Positions 42,775 through 49,952 of a stretch of 64,000 nucleotides of DNA are shown here, one piece after another (the first letter of the stretch is position 1; the number at the start of each line of letters is the position of its first letter). This DNA comes from Achromobacter dolens (GTDB lineage: Bacteria > Pseudomonadota > Gammaproteobacteria > Burkholderiales > Burkholderiaceae_B). Under the pieces are notes generated by a model, which was not told the DNA's origin, ran no database searches, and saw only the letters and a list, made by a program, of their open reading frames with translations. Both the position numbers and the translations under genes were made by a program. The stretch is taken from contig NZ_CADIJW010000018.1 of NCBI RefSeq assembly GCF_902859745.1, positions 1 through 64,000 on the forward strand, given 5' to 3'.

Positions 42775-44277
42775 TCACGCCGCCTGGATCGGGATCACCG
42801 CATGCACCGGGCGACCGCGCGCATCAATCGCCACCGTCACCGGCATGTCGCGCACCTCGAATTCATAGATCGCCTCCATGCCCAGGTCGGCGAAGGCCAC
42901 CACGCGCGCCGCGCGCACGGCCTGCGACACCAGGTAGGCCGCGCCGCCCACCGCGCTGAGGTAGGCGCCGCCGTGGGCCTGGATCGCCTGCACCGCCAGC
43001 GGTCCGCGCTCGGCCTTGCCGATGGTCACCAGCAGGCCGCTGTCGGCCAGCAGGCGCGGCATGAACTTGTCCATGCGGGCCGCGGTGGTGGGGCCGGCCG
43101 GGCCCACCGCTTCGCCGGCCACCGGATCGACCGGGCCGACGTAGTACAGCGCGCGCCCTTGCAGCGGCACCGGCAGCGGTTCGCCCCGCGCCAGCAATTC
43201 ATCCATGCGCTTGTGCGCGGCGTCGCGGCCGGTCAGCAACCTGCCGGACAGCAGCAGCGTTTCGCCGGCTTGCCACGAGGCGACCTCGGCGTGCGTCAGT
43301 GAGTCCAGGTCGACCCGGCGGCCGGCGCTGTCCGGCAGGGCGTCCGGAATGCCGTCCCAGGCCGCGGGATCGGGCGGCGGCAGTACCGCCGGCCCGCTGT
43401 CGGGCATCGTGAACGTCACGAAGCGGGTGGCGGCGCAGTTGGGCAGCAGCGCCACCGGCAGCAGCGCCGCGTGCGAGGCGGCGGTGGCGACCTTGACGTC
43501 GAGCACGGTGGTGTCGCCGCCCAGGCCCTGGGCGCCGATGCGCAGCGCGTTGACGCGCTGGTGGACCTCGATCCGCAAGCGCTCGACCGGGTCTTGCGCG
43601 CCGCGTGCCAGCAGCTCGGGCATGTCGATCGGCGTGAAGAGGGCGCGCTTGGCCAGGGCCATGGCCTGTTCCGGCGAACCGCCCACGCCCAGCCCCAGCA
43701 CGCCCGGCGGGCACCAGCCGGCGCCCATGCCGGGAAGTTGCGCCACCACCCAGTCGGCGACCGAGTCGCTGGGATTGAGCATGGCATAGCGCGCCTTGAC
43801 GTCGCCGCCGCCGCCCTTGGCGACTACGGTCAACTCCAGTCCGTCGCCTTCCACCAGTTCCACGTGCAGCACGGCGGGCGTGTTGTCGCGGGTGTTGCGG
43901 CGCAGGCCCAGCGGGTCGCGCACCATCGATGCCCGCAGCGGATTGGCGGCACAGCCATAGGCGCGCGCCACGGCCCGGTCGGCCAGGCTTTGCAGGCTGG
44001 GCGTGGGGCCGGAGCCGTCGGCGCGGATGCGCGCGTCCATGCCGAGCCGGGCATAGACGTGCGCCACGCCGGTGTCCTGGCAGACCGGGCGCCGCGCCCG
44101 CGCGCTCATCTTGCTGTTGACCAGCAATTGCAGCAGCGCGTGGCGCGCGGCCGGCGCGGTTTCGCGGTCGTGGGCGGCCTTCAGCGCCCGCACGAAATCG
44201 GGCGGATGCGTGTGGCTGACCGCCTGCAGGGCCTGGGCGATGCTGGTCTCGATATCGGAAGCGAGCAGGACGCGCAT
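42775..44277 (-). CDS. Class I fumarate hydratase (fumarase/L-tartrate dehydratase family)
   Basis: Protein of 500 residues carrying both alpha and beta parts in one chain. The three 4Fe-4S ligands are visible: Cys66 in VCQDTG, Cys189 in GWCPPG and Cys281 in LPNCAATR. The KGGGGD motif (154-159) and C-terminal AVGPAGPTTAARMDKFMP and GKAERGP match class I fumarases; length is near the usual 500-550. It hydrates fumarate to malate, or dehydrates tartrate. It is the last gene of an operon with a Bug receptor and a fumarase/PcaB-superfamily lyase, so it probably removes fumarate made by the lyase. Confidence 0.92.
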   Translation of the reverse strand: MRVLLASDIETSIAQALQAVSHTHPPDFVRALKAAHDRETAPAARHALLQLLVNSKMSARARRPVCQDTGVAHVYARLGMDARIRADGSGPTPSLQSLADRAVARAYGCAANPLRASMVRDPLGLRRNTRDNTPAVLHVELVEGDGLELTVVAKGGGGDVKARYAMLNPSDSVADWVVAQLPGMGAGWCPPGVLGLGVGGSPEQAMALAKRALFTPIDMPELLARGAQDPVERLRIEVHQRVNALRIGAQGLGGDTTVLDVKVATAASHAALLPVALLPNCAATRFVTFTMPDSGPAVLPPPDPAAWDGIPDALPDSAGRRVDLDSLTHAEVASWQAGETLLLSGRLLTGRDAAHKRMDELLARGEPLPVPLQGRALYYVGPVDPVAGEAVGPAGPTTAARMDKFMPRLLADSGLLVTIGKAERGPLAVQAIQAHGGAYLSAVGGAAYLVSQAVRAARVVAFADLGMEAIYEFEVRDMPVTVAIDARGRPVHAVIPIQAA

Positions 44278-44289
44278 GATGTGGCGGGC

Positions 44290-45270
44290 CTATTGCAGCG
44301 TGATGCCGGCCTGCTTGATGACGCCGGCCCAGCGCTTGCCTTCATCGGCGGTGAATTGCTGGAAGGCGGCGGGCGCGTACTGGCCCTCCGGCAGCAACTG
44401 GATGCCCTGTTCCACCATCTTGCCGGTGAAGTCACTGTCGGCCAGCGCCTTCTGCCAGGCGCCGTACATCGTCTGCACCACCGCGTCCGGCGTGCCCTTT
44501 GGGGCATATAGGCCGTACCACGTGGACACCTGGAAGCCCGGCAGGGCTTGCGCGCCCATCGGCGCCACGTTGGGGAACTGCGCCATGGCGGTGGCGGAGG
44601 TCAGCCCCAGCGCGCGCACCTTGCCGCCGCGGGTCTGAGGCAGGGCGGTGTTGGTCTGGTCGAACATGGCGTCGACCTGGTTGCCCATCAGGTCGTTCAG
44701 CGCCGGGCCGGCGCCCTTGTAGGCGATGGGCGTGATGTCCATGCCGGCCTGGCTGGCGAACATGGCGGCCACCAGGTGCGAGGTCGAGCCGACCCCGGCG
44801 TTACTGAAGTTGAGCTTGCCCGGATGCTGCTTGCCGAAGGCGATCAGTTCGGACACCGACTTGTAGGGCGAGCTTTCGCCCACCAGCAGCACCAGCGGCG
44901 TGTCGGGGAAGCGGAACACCGCCTGGAAGTCCCTGGTCGGGTCGTACGGCAGCCGTTGGTACAGCGACGGCGCGGCCGCCATGTAGCCGATGTGGCCCAC
45001 CAGGAAGGTGTAGCCGTCGGGCGTCGACTTGGCCGCCTTGGCCGCGCCGATGGTGCCGCCCGCGCCGCCCACGTTCTCGATCAGGATGGTCTGCTTGAGT
45101 TCCTGCGCGACGCGGTTGGCGATGTTGCGCGCCATCGCGTCGGTGGGGCCGCCGGCCGCGAACGGCACGATCCAGGTGATGGCGCGGTTGGGGTAGGTGT
45201 CCTGCGCGTGCGCGCCCGGGGTCAGGGCGAATGCCGCCGTGGCGGTGATCGCCGCCAGCCAGTTCTTCAT
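44290..45270 (-). CDS. Bug-family (tripartite tricarboxylate) solute-binding protein
   Basis: Protein of 326 residues with signal peptide ending about PGAHA, then the Bug hallmarks YPNRAITWIVPFAAGGPTDA, VENVGGAGGTIGA-like IENVGGAGGTIGAAKAAKS, and STSHLVAAMFASQAG. It binds a small carboxylate in the periplasm. No TctAB membrane partners are nearby; orphan Bug receptors are usual in Bordetella/Achromobacter. ATG 45270 has GGAG upstream. It lies 12 bp after the fumarase stop side in the same operon. Confidence 0.93.
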   Translation of the reverse strand: MKNWLAAITATAAFALTPGAHAQDTYPNRAITWIVPFAAGGPTDAMARNIANRVAQELKQTILIENVGGAGGTIGAAKAAKSTPDGYTFLVGHIGYMAAAPSLYQRLPYDPTRDFQAVFRFPDTPLVLLVGESSPYKSVSELIAFGKQHPGKLNFSNAGVGSTSHLVAAMFASQAGMDITPIAYKGAGPALNDLMGNQVDAMFDQTNTALPQTRGGKVRALGLTSATAMAQFPNVAPMGAQALPGFQVSTWYGLYAPKGTPDAVVQTMYGAWQKALADSDFTGKMVEQGIQLLPEGQYAPAAFQQFTADEGKRWAGVIKQAGITLQ

Positions 45271-45319
45271 GGTTTGTCTCCGTGGGTGTTTTTTATCGGG
45301 GGAAAGCCGGCGCCGCGGT

Positions 45320-46675
45320 TCAGGCGGCGCCGGGGTTGAGATGCGCGCGCATGCGGTCCACCATCCGGGGCGCGGCCCCGAGGTAGTGGGCCGGATCGCA
45401 CAGCCGTTCGATCTGGTCCGCGCCGAGCCGCTGCGCGACCCGCGCGTCCTCGCGCAGCACGTCAGCCAGCCGGCGGCGGGACGTGGCCGCCTCGCGGCAG
45501 GCGTCGTAGACCACGTCATGCGCGGTCTGGCGGCCGATGTGCGGCGCCAGGCCCATCATCACGGCCTCGGCCACGATCAGGCCGCCGGACAGATCCAGGT
45601 TGCGCGCCATGCGCGCGGTGTCCACTTCCAGTCCGCCGAGCATGAAGCGGGCCTGGCGCAGCGAGCCGGCCGTCAGCACGAAGGCCTCGGGCACGGCCGA
45701 CCATTCGATGTGCCAGGGGCCGGTGGCGCGCTCGAAGTCCTGCAGCATGGCGTCCAGCGCCAGCCCGGCGTGCTGGCGCACGGTCTTGGACGCCGCCCAC
45801 ATCAATTCGCACGAGATCGGATTGCGCTTCTGCGGCATGGTGCTGGAGGCGCCGCGGCCCTTCACGAACGGCTCGAACGCCTCGCCCAGCTCGTTGGTCA
45901 TCATCAGCATGATGTCGACCGCGATCTTGCCCAGCGAGCCGCATACCAGCGCCAGGAACTGCACCGTTTCCGCCAGGCCGTCGCGCGCCACGTGCCAGGT
46001 CACCGGCGCGGCGCCCAATCCCAGTTCGTCCATCAGGGCGCCATGCACCGTCAGGCCCTGCTCGCCGAGCGAGGCCAGCGTGCCGGCCGCGCCGCCGAAT
46101 TGCCCGATCAGCACCCGCGGCCGCAACTGCGCCAGGCGTTCGCGATGGCGCCGCAGCATCAGCAGCCAGATGGCGGCCTTGTAGCCGAACGTGATCGGCA
46201 GGGCGTGCTGCAAATGGGTGCGGCCTGCCATGGGGGTGTCGCGGTATTCGCGCGCCAGGTTGTCGAGGATGGCGTCCAGCGCCGCCAGGTCGGCATCCAC
46301 CAGTTCCAGCGCCTCGCGCACCTGCAGCACGGTGGCGGTGTCCATGATGTCCTGCGTGGTCGCGCCCCAATGCAGGTATTCGCCTTCCGGACCGCATTGG
46401 CGCGACAGCTGGTGCACCAGCGGCAGGATCGGATAGCCGACGATCTCGGTTTCCTCGCGCAGCAGCGTCATGTCGAGGGCGGCGGCGTCGGCGCGGGCCT
46501 CGATGGCGCGGGCGGCCTCGGCCGGGATCACGCCCAGCCGGCCCTGCACCCGCGCCAGCGCGACTTCGGTTTCCACATAGCGTCGCACGGTGGCGGCATC
46601 GTCGAACACGGCCCGCATCGCGGCGGTGCCGAACATATCTTTGAAGAGGGTGGATTCGAGAACCGAGACTGGCAT
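45320..46675 (-). CDS. Aspartase/fumarase-superfamily lyase (PcaB-like)
   Basis: Protein of 451 residues. Superfamily regions present: HWGATTQDIMDTA (102-114), GRTHLQHALPITFG (151-164) and the signature GASSTMPQKRNPIS (275-288) with the flexible-loop Ser residues. The PQKRNP form is shared with carboxymuconate cycloisomerase and several C-N lyases. No other protocatechuate genes are near. With fumarase and an uptake receptor downstream, an N-substituted aspartate or similar compound cleaved to fumarate is more likely than cis,cis-muconate chemistry. The inverted repeat at 46676 begins immediately before its ATG. Confidence 0.85.
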   Translation of the reverse strand: MPVSVLESTLFKDMFGTAAMRAVFDDAATVRRYVETEVALARVQGRLGVIPAEAARAIEARADAAALDMTLLREETEIVGYPILPLVHQLSRQCGPEGEYLHWGATTQDIMDTATVLQVREALELVDADLAALDAILDNLAREYRDTPMAGRTHLQHALPITFGYKAAIWLLMLRRHRERLAQLRPRVLIGQFGGAAGTLASLGEQGLTVHGALMDELGLGAAPVTWHVARDGLAETVQFLALVCGSLGKIAVDIMLMMTNELGEAFEPFVKGRGASSTMPQKRNPISCELMWAASKTVRQHAGLALDAMLQDFERATGPWHIEWSAVPEAFVLTAGSLRQARFMLGGLEVDTARMARNLDLSGGLIVAEAVMMGLAPHIGRQTAHDVVYDACREAATSRRRLADVLREDARVAQRLGADQIERLCDPAHYLGAAPRMVDRMRAHLNPGAA

Positions 46676-46709
46676 AAATGTACGCTCTTAAAAAGTTGTA
46701 CGTACATTT
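46676..46709. promoter_or_regulatory. Inverted repeat between lyase and GntR/UTRA genes
   Basis: Perfect 9-bp arms AAATGTACG (46676-46684) and CGTACATTT (46701-46709), separated by 16 bp. The right arm also forms the self-complementary TGTACGTACA (46697-46706). Its left end touches the lyase start codon, an ideal place for repression by the divergent GntR protein. Confidence 0.7.
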
Positions 46710-46799
46710 AAGCAGGGCCTTCGGCGGGCGTCAATGCCGGGGAATACCCGCGCCCGGGCAGCAGATAGAATGGAGCCTGTCGCAAACACCCCCGGTTCC

Positions 46800-47522
46800 A
46801 TGTCCATCTCGCTGTACACCCGCATCTCCGAAGAACTGGCACGACGGATCGCCGGCGGCGTGTATGCCGTGGGGGCCGTGCTGCCGTCCGAGAACGCCCT
46901 GGCCGAAGAGTTCGACGCCAGTCGTCACACCCTGCGGGCGGCGTTGCGCCAGTTGCAGGACCTGGGGTTGATCGCGCGTCGGCGCGGCAGCGGCACCGTG
47001 GTCACGGCGGCCCGGCCCAAGGCCGGTTTCAGCCAGTCGCTGCGGTCGCTGGAAGACTTGGTGCAATTGGCCGCGCGCACGCCGCGCACCATCCTGCAGG
47101 TGCAGGAGATCGTGGCCGACCTGGAACTGGCCGCGCGCCTGGGCGTCGGGCCGGGCACGCGCTGGCTGCGTTTTGTCTCGACCCGAGGCACGCCGGCGCA
47201 GCCGCCGGTGGTGTGGACCGAGCTGTATGTGGACGCCCACTACAAGGGCGTGCGCAAGCTGGCGCGCCAGCATCCCGACCGGCTGGTGTCGGAACTGATC
47301 GAGGAACACTACGGCCGCCGCATCGCCTCGGTCGAGCAGACCATCTCGGCCTGCGCCATGCCGGCGGCGGTGGCCGGCGAATTGCAGGTGGCGCCGGAGT
47401 CGCCCGGCTTGCTGATCCTGCGCCACTACAAGGACCAGGCCGGGCAGATCGTGGAAGCGTCGTGCTCGTACCATCCTGCCGGACGCTACGAGTTTTCGAC
47501 GACGCTGATCCGCGAGCACTGA
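46800..47522 (+). CDS. GntR-family regulator with UTRA domain (HutC subfamily)
   Basis: Protein of 240 residues from ATG 46800 (MSISLYTRISEELARRIAGG); starts at 46770 or 46734 are also possible, but none has a strong ribosome-binding site. N-terminal winged helix (LPSENALAEEFDASRHTLR, ALRQLQDLGLIARRRGSGTVV), then a UTRA ligand domain ending SYHPAGRYEFSTTLIR. HutC-type regulators bind pathway substrates. It is divergent from the lyase operon with a clear inverted repeat between them, so it is the probable repressor. Confidence 0.9.
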   Translation: MSISLYTRISEELARRIAGGVYAVGAVLPSENALAEEFDASRHTLRAALRQLQDLGLIARRRGSGTVVTAARPKAGFSQSLRSLEDLVQLAARTPRTILQVQEIVADLELAARLGVGPGTRWLRFVSTRGTPAQPPVVWTELYVDAHYKGVRKLARQHPDRLVSELIEEHYGRRIASVEQTISACAMPAAVAGELQVAPESPGLLILRHYKDQAGQIVEASCSYHPAGRYEFSTTLIREH

Positions 47523-47548
47523 GCCGGTTGGTCCCCGCGCCGCCGCGC

Positions 47549-48685
47549 CTACACCGCGTACACCACCCGGTGCGCTTCCGTCGGCAGCGGCAGGTCCCAG
47601 CGGTGCAGCATGCCCAGCAAGGTCTTGTTCGGCAGCGACGTGTCGCGCCGGGCGTTGCGCCGCAGCAGTTCGGCGCGCGGCTGCTCCAGGTACACCAGCT
47701 CGACCTCGGCGTGGTAGGCGTACAGCAGGTCCAGCGTTTTCTTGCGCATCAACTGGCTGAGGTTGGTGGCGTTCCAGACGAACGGGCGGCGCGCGCGCAG
47801 CAAGGCCTTGGCCCGGTCGATCGCCAGGTGCGCCACCTTGCCTTCGTTCTTGCCGTGCGCCAGGCCGAGCGCCTCGCGCGCGTCGTCGAACGACACGACC
47901 GGCAGGTCGGGGTGATGCGCCGCCACCCAACTGTTCTTGCCGCTGGCCGGCAGGCCCGACATGACGATGACGCGCGAGCCGGGCTCCTGGAACAGGGCGT
48001 AGTCCGGATGCACGTCGGCGCCGCGAAAGTAGCTGACGGCGGTGTGCGCGTCGGCGAAGCGCCGCGGTTGGCCGTAGCAGTCTTCCTCGCGCGCGGCCTC
48101 GCGGAACAGCGCGATGTTGTCCAGCACCTGCTGCTGGTCGCGGCAGACGCGGCCGCGCATGTCGGCCTCGGCCAGCATTGCCAGCAGCGGAATGCTCAGT
48201 TGCCACGACAGCTCGCGCACGATGAATTCCACCGATTTGCCGCGGCGCGAACCGGACAGGGCGAAGAACGGCACCTGGTGCACGGCGATCAGGCGGCAGA
48301 TGGCCTCGCGCACGGCGAAGGGCACGCCGGCGTCCCACAGCGCGATGCGCGCGTCGATCGCGCCCCGGGCGGAATGGCCGGGTTGCGAAATCGCGCCGCT
48401 GGCCGGGTCGATCACCGTGGTGGCGTGCTTGGCGATGTCGTGCAGCAGCGCCGCCAGGAACACGATCTCCTGGTCGGCGCGGCTGGCGGCCTGGTAATCG
48501 GGCAGCGCCAGCAGGGCCTCGACCACCATGCGGGTGTGGGTCCAGACGTCGCCCTCGCCGTGGTAGCGCGGGTCCTGCGGCGTGGTCTTGGCCAGCTCCA
48601 GCGCCGGAAAGGCCGCCAGACAGGCGGCGAAGTCCGGCGCCCGGCCGGCGGCGGGCGCCAGGGCCCGCAATTGTTCGTAGTTCAT
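47549..48685 (-). CDS. HD-Pnk: HD phosphoesterase fused to polynucleotide 5'-kinase
   Basis: Protein of 378 residues. The N-terminal HD domain has His50 (DVWTHTRM), His82-Asp83 (LLHDIAKH), His104 (GHSARG), His136 (VHQVPF) and Asp175 (EADMRG). The C-terminal kinase domain has P-loop GLPASGKNSW (244-253), a Asp267-Asp268 pair (SFDDAR) and an Arg-rich lid RRNARRD (342-348). This is the layout of bifunctional HD-Pnk end-healing enzymes, which remove 2',3'-phosphates and phosphorylate 5'-OH ends of broken RNA or DNA. ATGA overlap with the upstream ligase gene shows coupled expression. Function inferred from domains. Confidence 0.87.
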   Translation of the reverse strand: MNYEQLRALAPAAGRAPDFAACLAAFPALELAKTTPQDPRYHGEGDVWTHTRMVVEALLALPDYQAASRADQEIVFLAALLHDIAKHATTVIDPASGAISQPGHSARGAIDARIALWDAGVPFAVREAICRLIAVHQVPFFALSGSRRGKSVEFIVRELSWQLSIPLLAMLAEADMRGRVCRDQQQVLDNIALFREAAREEDCYGQPRRFADAHTAVSYFRGADVHPDYALFQEPGSRVIVMSGLPASGKNSWVAAHHPDLPVVSFDDAREALGLAHGKNEGKVAHLAIDRAKALLRARRPFVWNATNLSQLMRKKTLDLLYAYHAEVELVYLEQPRAELLRRNARRDTSLPNKTLLGMLHRWDLPLPTEAHRVVYAV

Positions 48686-49551
48686 GATGCCTCCTTGTCG
48701 CCGCGCAGCGTGTCCCAATCGACCCGCGGACGCGGGGCGTACAGGTCGACGCCGGGCGCGAGCAGGTTGGGGACGTAGGGCTGCTCGGAATGGTGCTTGT
48801 CGGCGGCCAGGATGGCCTGGACGAAGTCGGCGCGCACCCATTTGTATCGGCCCAGCGTCCTGCCGTCGGCCTCCACCTTGATGTACAGGCCTTCCGACAG
48901 GTCCGACTTGTCGCATTGCCGCCAGGCCAGCGCCAGGTCCAGGCCCTCGCGCCGCACGGTGGCCTCGAACGCGTCGCGCCACCGCGCCGTCTTGGCCAGC
49001 GAGGGCCGCAGCAGGGCCTTCAGGTCGGCCAGGCGCGCGGGCGCCAGGCCGTCGTACAGGACAGGCACCGACAGCACCGGGCCGCCGGCCAGCAGTTCGC
49101 GCCGCGCCTCGGTGGACAGGAAGGCGCCGGTGCGGCGGTCGAGCACGTCGAACTCGAAGAAGTGGTGCGGCAGCGCGTCGTAGAACACCGAGTGCTTTTT
49201 CGATAGCGTTTCGCCGTACATCACGTAGCGGTCTTCCAGCCGTTGCAGCAGCCAGCCGGCGTGGGCCTGGGCCCAGGCCTTGATGAAGTTGAATTGGCGT
49301 TCGCGTCCGCCGCCCACCAGGTAGTGGCCGCGCGATTGCAGCAGCAGGTCGCCCGCGGGGCTGAAACTGATGCCGGTGTTGGCGCCATCGAGTTTCTCTT
49401 CCACCACCAGGCGCAGGCCGCGCAGGTCGCGGTAAGGCACGTGGTCGTGGCCGTGGTCGCCCTCCTGCAGCCGCGAGCCTTCCAGGTGCGGGGTGCGGGG
49501 ATAGCGGAACAGTTCAAGGGATTGCGCGCAGGCGCGGAAATCCGGCGTCAT
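48682..49551 (-). CDS. RNA ligase (Rnl2-type nucleotidyltransferase)
   Basis: Protein of 289 residues. Covalent nucleotidyltransferase motifs in order: motif I EEKLDGANTG with adenylation Lys53, an early MYGETL segment, motif III FFEFDVLDR (131-139), motif IV EGLYIKVE (220-227) and motif V RYKWVR (235-240). This matches ATP-dependent RNA ligase family proteins of about 250-340 residues. It seals 3'-OH and 5'-phosphate ends prepared by the HD-Pnk encoded next. GGAG precedes ATG 49551. First gene of the two-gene repair operon. No RtcR-like regulator is adjacent. Confidence 0.88.
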   Translation of the reverse strand: MTPDFRACAQSLELFRYPRTPHLEGSRLQEGDHGHDHVPYRDLRGLRLVVEEKLDGANTGISFSPAGDLLLQSRGHYLVGGGRERQFNFIKAWAQAHAGWLLQRLEDRYVMYGETLSKKHSVFYDALPHHFFEFDVLDRRTGAFLSTEARRELLAGGPVLSVPVLYDGLAPARLADLKALLRPSLAKTARWRDAFEATVRREGLDLALAWRQCDKSDLSEGLYIKVEADGRTLGRYKWVRADFVQAILAADKHHSEQPYVPNLLAPGVDLYAPRPRVDWDTLRGDKEAS

Positions 49552-49952
49552 GGGTCTTCTCCAGGAAAAGTGGGGAAGCCGACGACGCGGTCTTGCGGGG
49601 AAGGGAAGCGAGGGGGGATGTGTTGCGCGTTCCGGAACCGCGCCTGCCGCGGGTCGCGCTCAAGACCGGGAAGGTCGAGCCGCGTGAATGGACAGGCTGA
49701 CCGCGATTACCGGAAGGTAGTCGTCGGCGTTTAGGCGAATTGACGAATGGCAGACACGTTGGCACCCGGAAGAGAAGGGGTTGTTGAAAAGCAAGGGCGC
49801 ATCCTAAGGCAACGATGATGAGGCTGTCAACGCCGCGTCCGCCGGTTGTTGTCCGGCGGACACGCGGCGTTGTGCCCGGCACGGGGACGCGCCGGGCGGT
49901 ATCGCGGTATCACGGCGCTATTACATTCAAATCACGATAGTGATTTTGAAAT
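49552..49952. other. Intergenic region upstream of repair operon, no gene
   Basis: About 400 bp between the RNA ligase start and the end of the leftward alpha/beta hydrolase gene. It is less GC-rich than its surroundings and must contain the ligase promoter. A 122-residue frame on the minus strand has no signal or domain pattern and is not credible. An imperfect inverted repeat TTCAAATCAC / GTGATTTTGAA with a GATA-containing centre lies at 49926-49950, just after the hydrolase stop. Confidence 0.5.

Follow-up and report, generated by a model that had tools for sequence, protein, structure and literature searches.

The 64,000-nt stretch of Achromobacter dolens DNA analysed here (contig NZ_CADIJW010000018.1, positions 1 to 64,000; below, the window) carries on its minus strand a pair of genes for an ATP-dependent RNA ligase (48682-49551, ATG start, 289 aa) and an HD-Pnk (47549-48685, 378 aa), a protein with an HD phosphoesterase (about residues 1-203) followed by a P-loop 5'-OH polynucleotide kinase (about 235-378). 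Both open reading frames (ORFs) lie where an earlier note on this DNA had placed them, and the 4-bp overlap that it reported is an ATGA (48682-48685, minus strand) combining the ligase stop with the HD-Pnk start, which may couple translation of the two. The enzymes and their pairing are already known. Overlooked by that note was the leader upstream of the ligase gene (49552-49830), which holds a promoter, an eight-codon mini-ORF and a long-range stem, and which has apparently not been described before. No leader or upstream ORF (uORF) of a ligase-HD-Pnk operon was found in the literature searched; since coverage of that literature was partial, with few subscription papers, this is weak evidence of novelty.

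The leader in the window and genus

At the upstream end of the leader is a sigma70-type promoter-like site (TTGACA-18-TAGGAT; 49801-49830, minus strand), found once against 0.1 expected, with the -35 TTGAC kept in 15 of 16 aligned loci of the genus. The mini-ORF, a putative leader peptide (49731-49757, minus strand; MSAIRQFA, 8 codons, beginning with GTG and ending with TAA), is kept in start, stop and frame, as expected of a leader-peptide attenuator. Two nt past its stop begins the 5' arm of a stem, P1 (GCCGACGAC; 49720-49728, minus strand), whose 3' arm (GTCGTCGGC; 49578-49586, minus strand) follows after 133 nt and lies 15 nt before the Shine-Dalgarno-like GGAG of the ligase (49559-49562, minus strand). 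The leader has a minimum free energy of -81.4 kcal/mol (z -2.8), equalled or bettered by 3 of 200 shuffles, and RNAalifold on the genus leaders gives 44 pairs, 5 of them changed on both sides.

A covariance model of this conserved structured leader (R1; 49566-49767, minus strand) has matches at E 0.001 in 17 of 43 genomes of the genus, one in each and in every case 12-16 nt upstream of the ligase match. The 17 all belong to a set of 18 genomes in which the window's type of ligase (type a, below) is matched strongly; in the eighteenth (locus L165, genome G614) the leader is too divergent for R1. The 25 genus genomes without a strong ligase match yielded no R1 match, in a search whose filters, stricter for so many genomes, lose weak matches. 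Three Rfam matches to the leader all fall below gathering; the best of them, istR (E 0.38), is not believed as its identity. Reading of the sequence had also raised the idea of a tRNA-like or self-cleaving RNA, to which Rfam gave no match above gathering either.

The leader in other Beta- and Gammaproteobacteria

Beyond the genus, R1 finds the leader of a Burkholderia locus (L047, E 1.7e-10) and, weakly, of a Pseudomonas locus (L053, E 0.045); more divergent leaders gave no match. Upstream regions were read directly in 24 further beta/gamma loci with a type-a ligase, several of them near-copies and one (L165) belonging to the same genus; L045 was excluded because its ligase start is missing, and the ligase of type a is absent from L049, L059, and L062. 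With a strict arm motif, a mini-ORF whose stop adjoins the stem arm is present in 15/15 genus loci and 18/24 further loci, and three more (L012, L051, L061) have an ATG-started mini-ORF beside a looser version of the motif. Stop codons (TAA, TGA, TAG) and start codons (GTG, TTG) vary; peptides of the strict set have 8-9 codons and frequently begin Met-Pro-Arg, with no common end.

P1 forms with at least 8 of 9 pairs in 27 of the 28 loci having the arm motif. From these, 22 representatives were taken, chosen for having the stem and with near-copies and L063 dropped. All 22 have a mini-ORF of 7-9 codons with its stop 0-5 nt before the arm, against 0.24 expected by shuffling. In the best-fitting register 99% of P1 cells are paired, and two-sided changes occur at positions 1, 3, and 7; none appears once the opposite strand is shifted by 1-3 nt. 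Shuffles equal the nine-pair loci in 0-2% of cases. A pattern search for a leader subgroup was uninformative: it gave 2 matches in 399 genomes, neither of them with a ligase or HD-Pnk match closer than 1.5 kb, and the reversed control also gave 2.

Could the leader simply be a conserved promoter and 5' untranslated region, carried along with a recently transferred 2.3-kb cassette and of no regulatory meaning? A ligase match is present in 19 of the 43 genus genomes, a patchy distribution of the kind that transfer would give. Moreover, at 11 of the 16 genus loci fetched, a conserved unit stands between unlike flanks; it starts at 47534-47551, just after HD-Pnk, and ends at 49780-49843, and so takes in some 230-290 nt ahead of the ligase gene. 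(Of the others, L151-L153 share more with the window than this unit, L165 matches over the genes only, and L166, with a weak ligase match, has no match.) Against this, P1 is kept across families with compensatory changes while the loop between its arms ranges from 54 to 237 nt, which is not expected of neutral drift, and we consider a meaningless passenger improbable. The surroundings of the repair pair are rearranged locally: a metabolic block found downstream of HD-Pnk in the window (42783-47530) flanks the pair on its opposite side in L153, while L151 and L152 do not have this block next to the pair.

Start-stop codon pairs in other phyla

Outside these classes the corresponding regions hold something shorter. 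Aligned cyanobacterial and Bacteroidota upstream regions have a conserved ATG-TAG/TAA or ATG-TAA, i.e., a start codon followed at once by a stop. Among loci on the side of the second ligase type (type b, below), an [AG]TG-stop lies upstream in 19/25, against 6.2 expected, and in 16 of these its distance to the ligase is 85-115 nt; of 243 control regions, taken in front of other long ORFs at the same loci, 58 have one. Six of eight cyanobacterial loci with enough sequence have it too (2.6 expected). These counts overstate independence, because the loci are related. Two previously unexamined HD-Pnk-linked loci, L207 and L208, both have an upstream ATG-stop. A stem leading from the start-stop region towards the start of the ligase does better than shuffles (p about 0.05 or less) in 12 of the 25 loci tested, several of the 12 being close Chitinophagaceae relatives that share one stem; in 7 loci p exceeds 0.3.

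A possible ribosome-read switch

The position of the mini-ORF suggests a role in regulation: a ribosome at its stop would block P1, and a ribosome-read attenuator is therefore proposed. We put at roughly 55% the probability that the locus is an operon for mending broken RNA, controlled through a leader that ribosomes read. Its own promoter would drive transcription through some 240 nt of leader; a ribosome at or near the stop of a translated mini-ORF would cover the P1 5' arm, preventing the stem from forming; and disturbed translation would raise repair-enzyme output. HD-Pnk would then remove a 2',3'-cyclic phosphate or 3'-phosphate and phosphorylate the 5'-OH, leaving ends for the ligase to join, with cleaved RNAs the most likely substrates. 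The leader may, in short, activate the two repair genes when translation is impaired. If so, the mini-ORF and stem offer a handle by which to learn whether translation stress, tRNA cleavage or a drug induces the operon, and hence what its natural substrate is.

Two features of the sequence bear on the level at which such a switch would act. Past the P1 3' arm is a T-rich stretch (3.7 T in 8 nt, against 1.7 expected), which hints at a terminator, and the last 60 nt of the loop are richer in C than G in 21 of the 22 representatives; transcription attenuation, whether intrinsic or Rho-dependent, as in tnaC, would fit. For the start-stop loci, folding with the region forced unpaired raised accessibility of the ligase start by at least 0.05 in 11 of 17, lowered it in 3 and left it flat in 3.

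A number of results weigh against this proposal. Folding with a ribosome placed at the mini-ORF stop left ligase-start accessibility unchanged in 7/7 beta/gamma loci, so that a translational switch by P1 is unsupported in the window's lineage; in the start-stop loci, the opening exceeded that of every control footprint elsewhere in only 6/17. No intrinsic terminator was found after the P1 3' arm, where 4 of 8 genus representatives, including the window's, have only TT, and a loop as long as that of P1 would be unusual for a terminator. As to the stem itself, its register was picked per locus as the best fit, shuffles equal the eight-of-nine-pair loci in 1-23% of cases, and the RNAalifold covariation term is small within the genus (-0.9). 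The distribution also has gaps: three of the 24 beta/gamma loci (L013, L052, L063) have no mini-ORF of this kind, its beta/gamma form was found in 0/5 loci outside those classes, and the beta/gamma leader is absent from the plasmid operon L211. In the Deinococcus relative, finally, mutants in the HD motif had undiminished phosphatase activity, and joining of DNA or RNA by the operon's ligase-like protein went undetected (PMC1997131).

Part of this evidence would suit a different function: the leader would bind a protein, or would act as a structured RNA transcribed together with the genes (compare the Y RNAs of rtcBA operons), and the mini-ORF would be a side effect of a conserved sequence motif. 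Besides the lack of any accessibility effect in the beta/gamma loci, nucleotide conservation of the leader is strong inside the genus, and the Bacteroidota start-stop motif extends beyond its two codons, reading about G[CT]CATGTAAT. This seems unlikely to us nonetheless: the start and stop codons change from locus to locus, yet all 22 representatives keep the frame and a length of 7-9 codons, and the leader has no Rfam match above gathering.

Whether ribosome reading extends to the other phyla is a more doubtful matter. Tentatively, ligase-HD-Pnk operons of at least three phyla may be switched by ribosomes, with stalled or non-recycling ribosomes turning on RNA repair whichever ligase type is present. 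The mini-ORF would overlap the 5' arm of a long-range stem or immediately precede it, with 8-9 codons in most Beta- and Gammaproteobacteria and as a bare start-stop in Bacteroidota and cyanobacteria. A start-stop requires no elongator tRNA and so would not sense a missing amino acid; if this interpretation is true, trouble in initiation or termination would be sensed instead, which would be unusual.

Related leaders and repair systems

In the tnaC and erm leaders, stalling in a short upstream ORF opens amino-acid or drug genes. The closest known logic is that of the toiL uORF of topAI-yjhQ, where stalling in a short uORF alters leader structure and opens the downstream gene (PMC12121999); it controls a toxin-antitoxin pair, while the window leader would control RNA repair genes. 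The window-type leaders differ from all of these in that the stem arm begins right after the mini-ORF stop, and in that start-stop versions occur. Among RNA repair operons, rsr-yrlBA-rtcBA is regulated by tRNA fragments, its expression following RNA damage; control of rtcBA is by the RtcR protein (PMC7790460), whereas in the window the candidate is a leader RNA with a mini-ORF.

The pair itself has several counterparts. The HD-Pnk of Runella slithyformis, described by Munir and Shuman in 2017, reportedly has the same domain order and often an adjoining ligase gene. The phosphoesterase of the Pnkp1-Rnl-Hen1 RNA repair complex is of the calcineurin type, as against HD in the window pair. The latter is also a separate two-gene operon, and no Hen1 gene was seen beside it, unlike the complex (PMC4411300). 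Deinococcus DRB0098, studied in 2007 with the ligase-like DRB0100, likewise has an HD domain and then a P-loop kinase, often with a ligase gene adjoining (PMC1997131). From these HD-Pnk systems the window pair differs in having a PF09414 RNA ligase and a leader absent from the literature searched.

The two enzymes and their substrate

The earlier note's description of an HD phosphoesterase, a P-loop kinase and a ligase with Lys53 and motifs III-V is borne out by Pfam matches (HD, PF01966, 24.5 bits with a cut-off of 22; AAA_33, PF13671, 66 bits; RNA_ligase, PF09414, 110 bits, E 2.4e-31) and by kept catalytic residues. The HD-Pnk, whose ATG start sits inside a 477-aa mechanical ORF, has the H..HD..D metal ligands in its N-terminal HD domain and the catalytic Asp and Arg in its C-terminal kinase; H42, H50, D83, H104, D175, G249, K250, D267, R314, and R347 are invariant among 62 aligned HD-Pnks, 61 of which also have H82. 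In 57 of the 62, Asp or Asn takes the place of the Walker A Ser/Thr (Asn251 in the window). In the ligase, the nucleotidyl Lys53 lies in VEEKLDGAN (motif I, K-x-D-G), motifs III-V are present, and K53, D55, G56, E220, and K237 are invariant in 36 aligned proteins. AlphaFold models of both proteins are confident (pLDDT 92.6 and 96.5).

The label "Rnl2-type" is looser. Members of the Rnl2 subfamily should be nearer to Rnl2 than to the Rnl3 and Rnl5 ligases and have an Rnl2-like C-terminal domain. A PDB sequence search with the ligase found no match at E 0.01, and T4 Rnl2 is the third-best fold match (E 6.4e-7), after the RNA ligases of Naegleria (1.6e-7) and Palaeococcus (2.0e-7), although these E-values are similar in size and TM is about 0.4. 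The note's end-healing and sealing interpretation as a whole is supported in part.

A further possibility is that the pair mainly mends DNA breaks with dirty ends (radiation, mitomycin) rather than RNA, the leader being a general stress switch. The phenotype of the Deinococcus HD-Pnk points to such breaks; DRB0098 phosphorylates DNA 5'-OH ends and irradiation induces its operon (PMC1997131); and recX and umuD lie near one plasmid copy of HD-Pnk. We think DNA repair the poorer explanation and an unlikely one, as the ligase is a PF09414 RNA_ligase with RNA-ligase folds at the top of its matches, and the closest folds to the HD domain, among the matches listed by Foldseek, are tRNA-processing enzymes. 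In addition, the gene downstream of HD-Pnk on one viral contig (L124:9613-10680) looks like one for an RlaP-type nucleotidyltransferase. RlaP has an RNA-repair role (PMC7824862), so that this neighbour would fit RNA repair by phages.

The HD domain is also 33-39% identical to the HD domains of longer proteins, mostly from one Pseudomonadota family (L015-L038 except L029), which are probably CCA-adding enzymes. Neither HD-Pnk nor ligase was matched by PADLOC.

Pairing across genomes

A scan of named genomes for HD-Pnk relatives gave 146, of which the best 80 were kept. These come from Pseudomonadota, Bacteroidota, Cyanobacteriota, Actinomycetota, Acidobacteriota, Myxococcota, Bacillota, Chloroflexota, and Verrucomicrobiota. 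In 73 of the 80 loci a PF09414-like ligase gene lies within 1.5 kb of HD-Pnk, and in 64 it is at most 300 bp upstream on the same strand; the pairing that the earlier note had proposed comparing among homologs is thus conserved. The ligase follows HD-Pnk in L069 and L078, and is on the opposite strand in L109. Loci lacking a ligase neighbour are L059, L062, L085, and L086, plus L077 and L087, both cut by a contig end. L047 (Burkholderia aenigmatica) carries a second HD-Pnk-like gene about 6 kb from the first on the same contig (7889-9394 and 15131-16165) and was counted by the copy distant from the ligase; with the other, the loci having a ligase neighbour become 74/80. The pairing is also already published, Munir and Shuman reportedly having stated it in 2017. 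In a listing of the 45 largest ORF clusters from 93 loci, no third protein family was seen to recur next to the pair in different clades; the remaining large clusters were judged by eye to be antisense shadows or clade-local synteny.

The paired ligases form two groups, separated by long, fully supported branches in a tree of 79 rows: type a, that of the window (46 rows, including the deep L118), and type b (33 rows), shorter proteins mostly from Bacteroidota. All 30 type-b ligases tested by Pfam are likewise PF09414. A quick tree of HD-Pnk requires at least 6 changes of ligase type, and its well-supported branches alone force 3 for type b. The HD-Pnk of the Bordetella sp. locus L049 (7291-9134), for example, is 69% identical to the window's, yet its partner is a type-b ligase, and the viral contig L121 shows the same partner swap, its HD-Pnk being about 69% identical to the window's. 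Such swaps beside HD-Pnk suggest that healing, rather than sealing, defines the system.

HD-Pnk relatives also occur on 11 viral contigs (2 of these matches weak and partial), in one phage record, and in 45 of 72,556 plasmid records. Of three plasmid copies, L212 has no ligase match, L210 has the ligase after HD-Pnk, and L211 has it before, with one gene between. Some single genomes show further variations: a ligase match in L203, from the same genome as L013 (G281), contains one in-frame stop; HD-Pnk is split over two separate ORFs in a Pectobacterium sp. (L060:7992-9155); and the A. dolens genome itself encodes, on another contig (G000:C3:129287-130318), a second and different RNA-sealing enzyme, RtcB.
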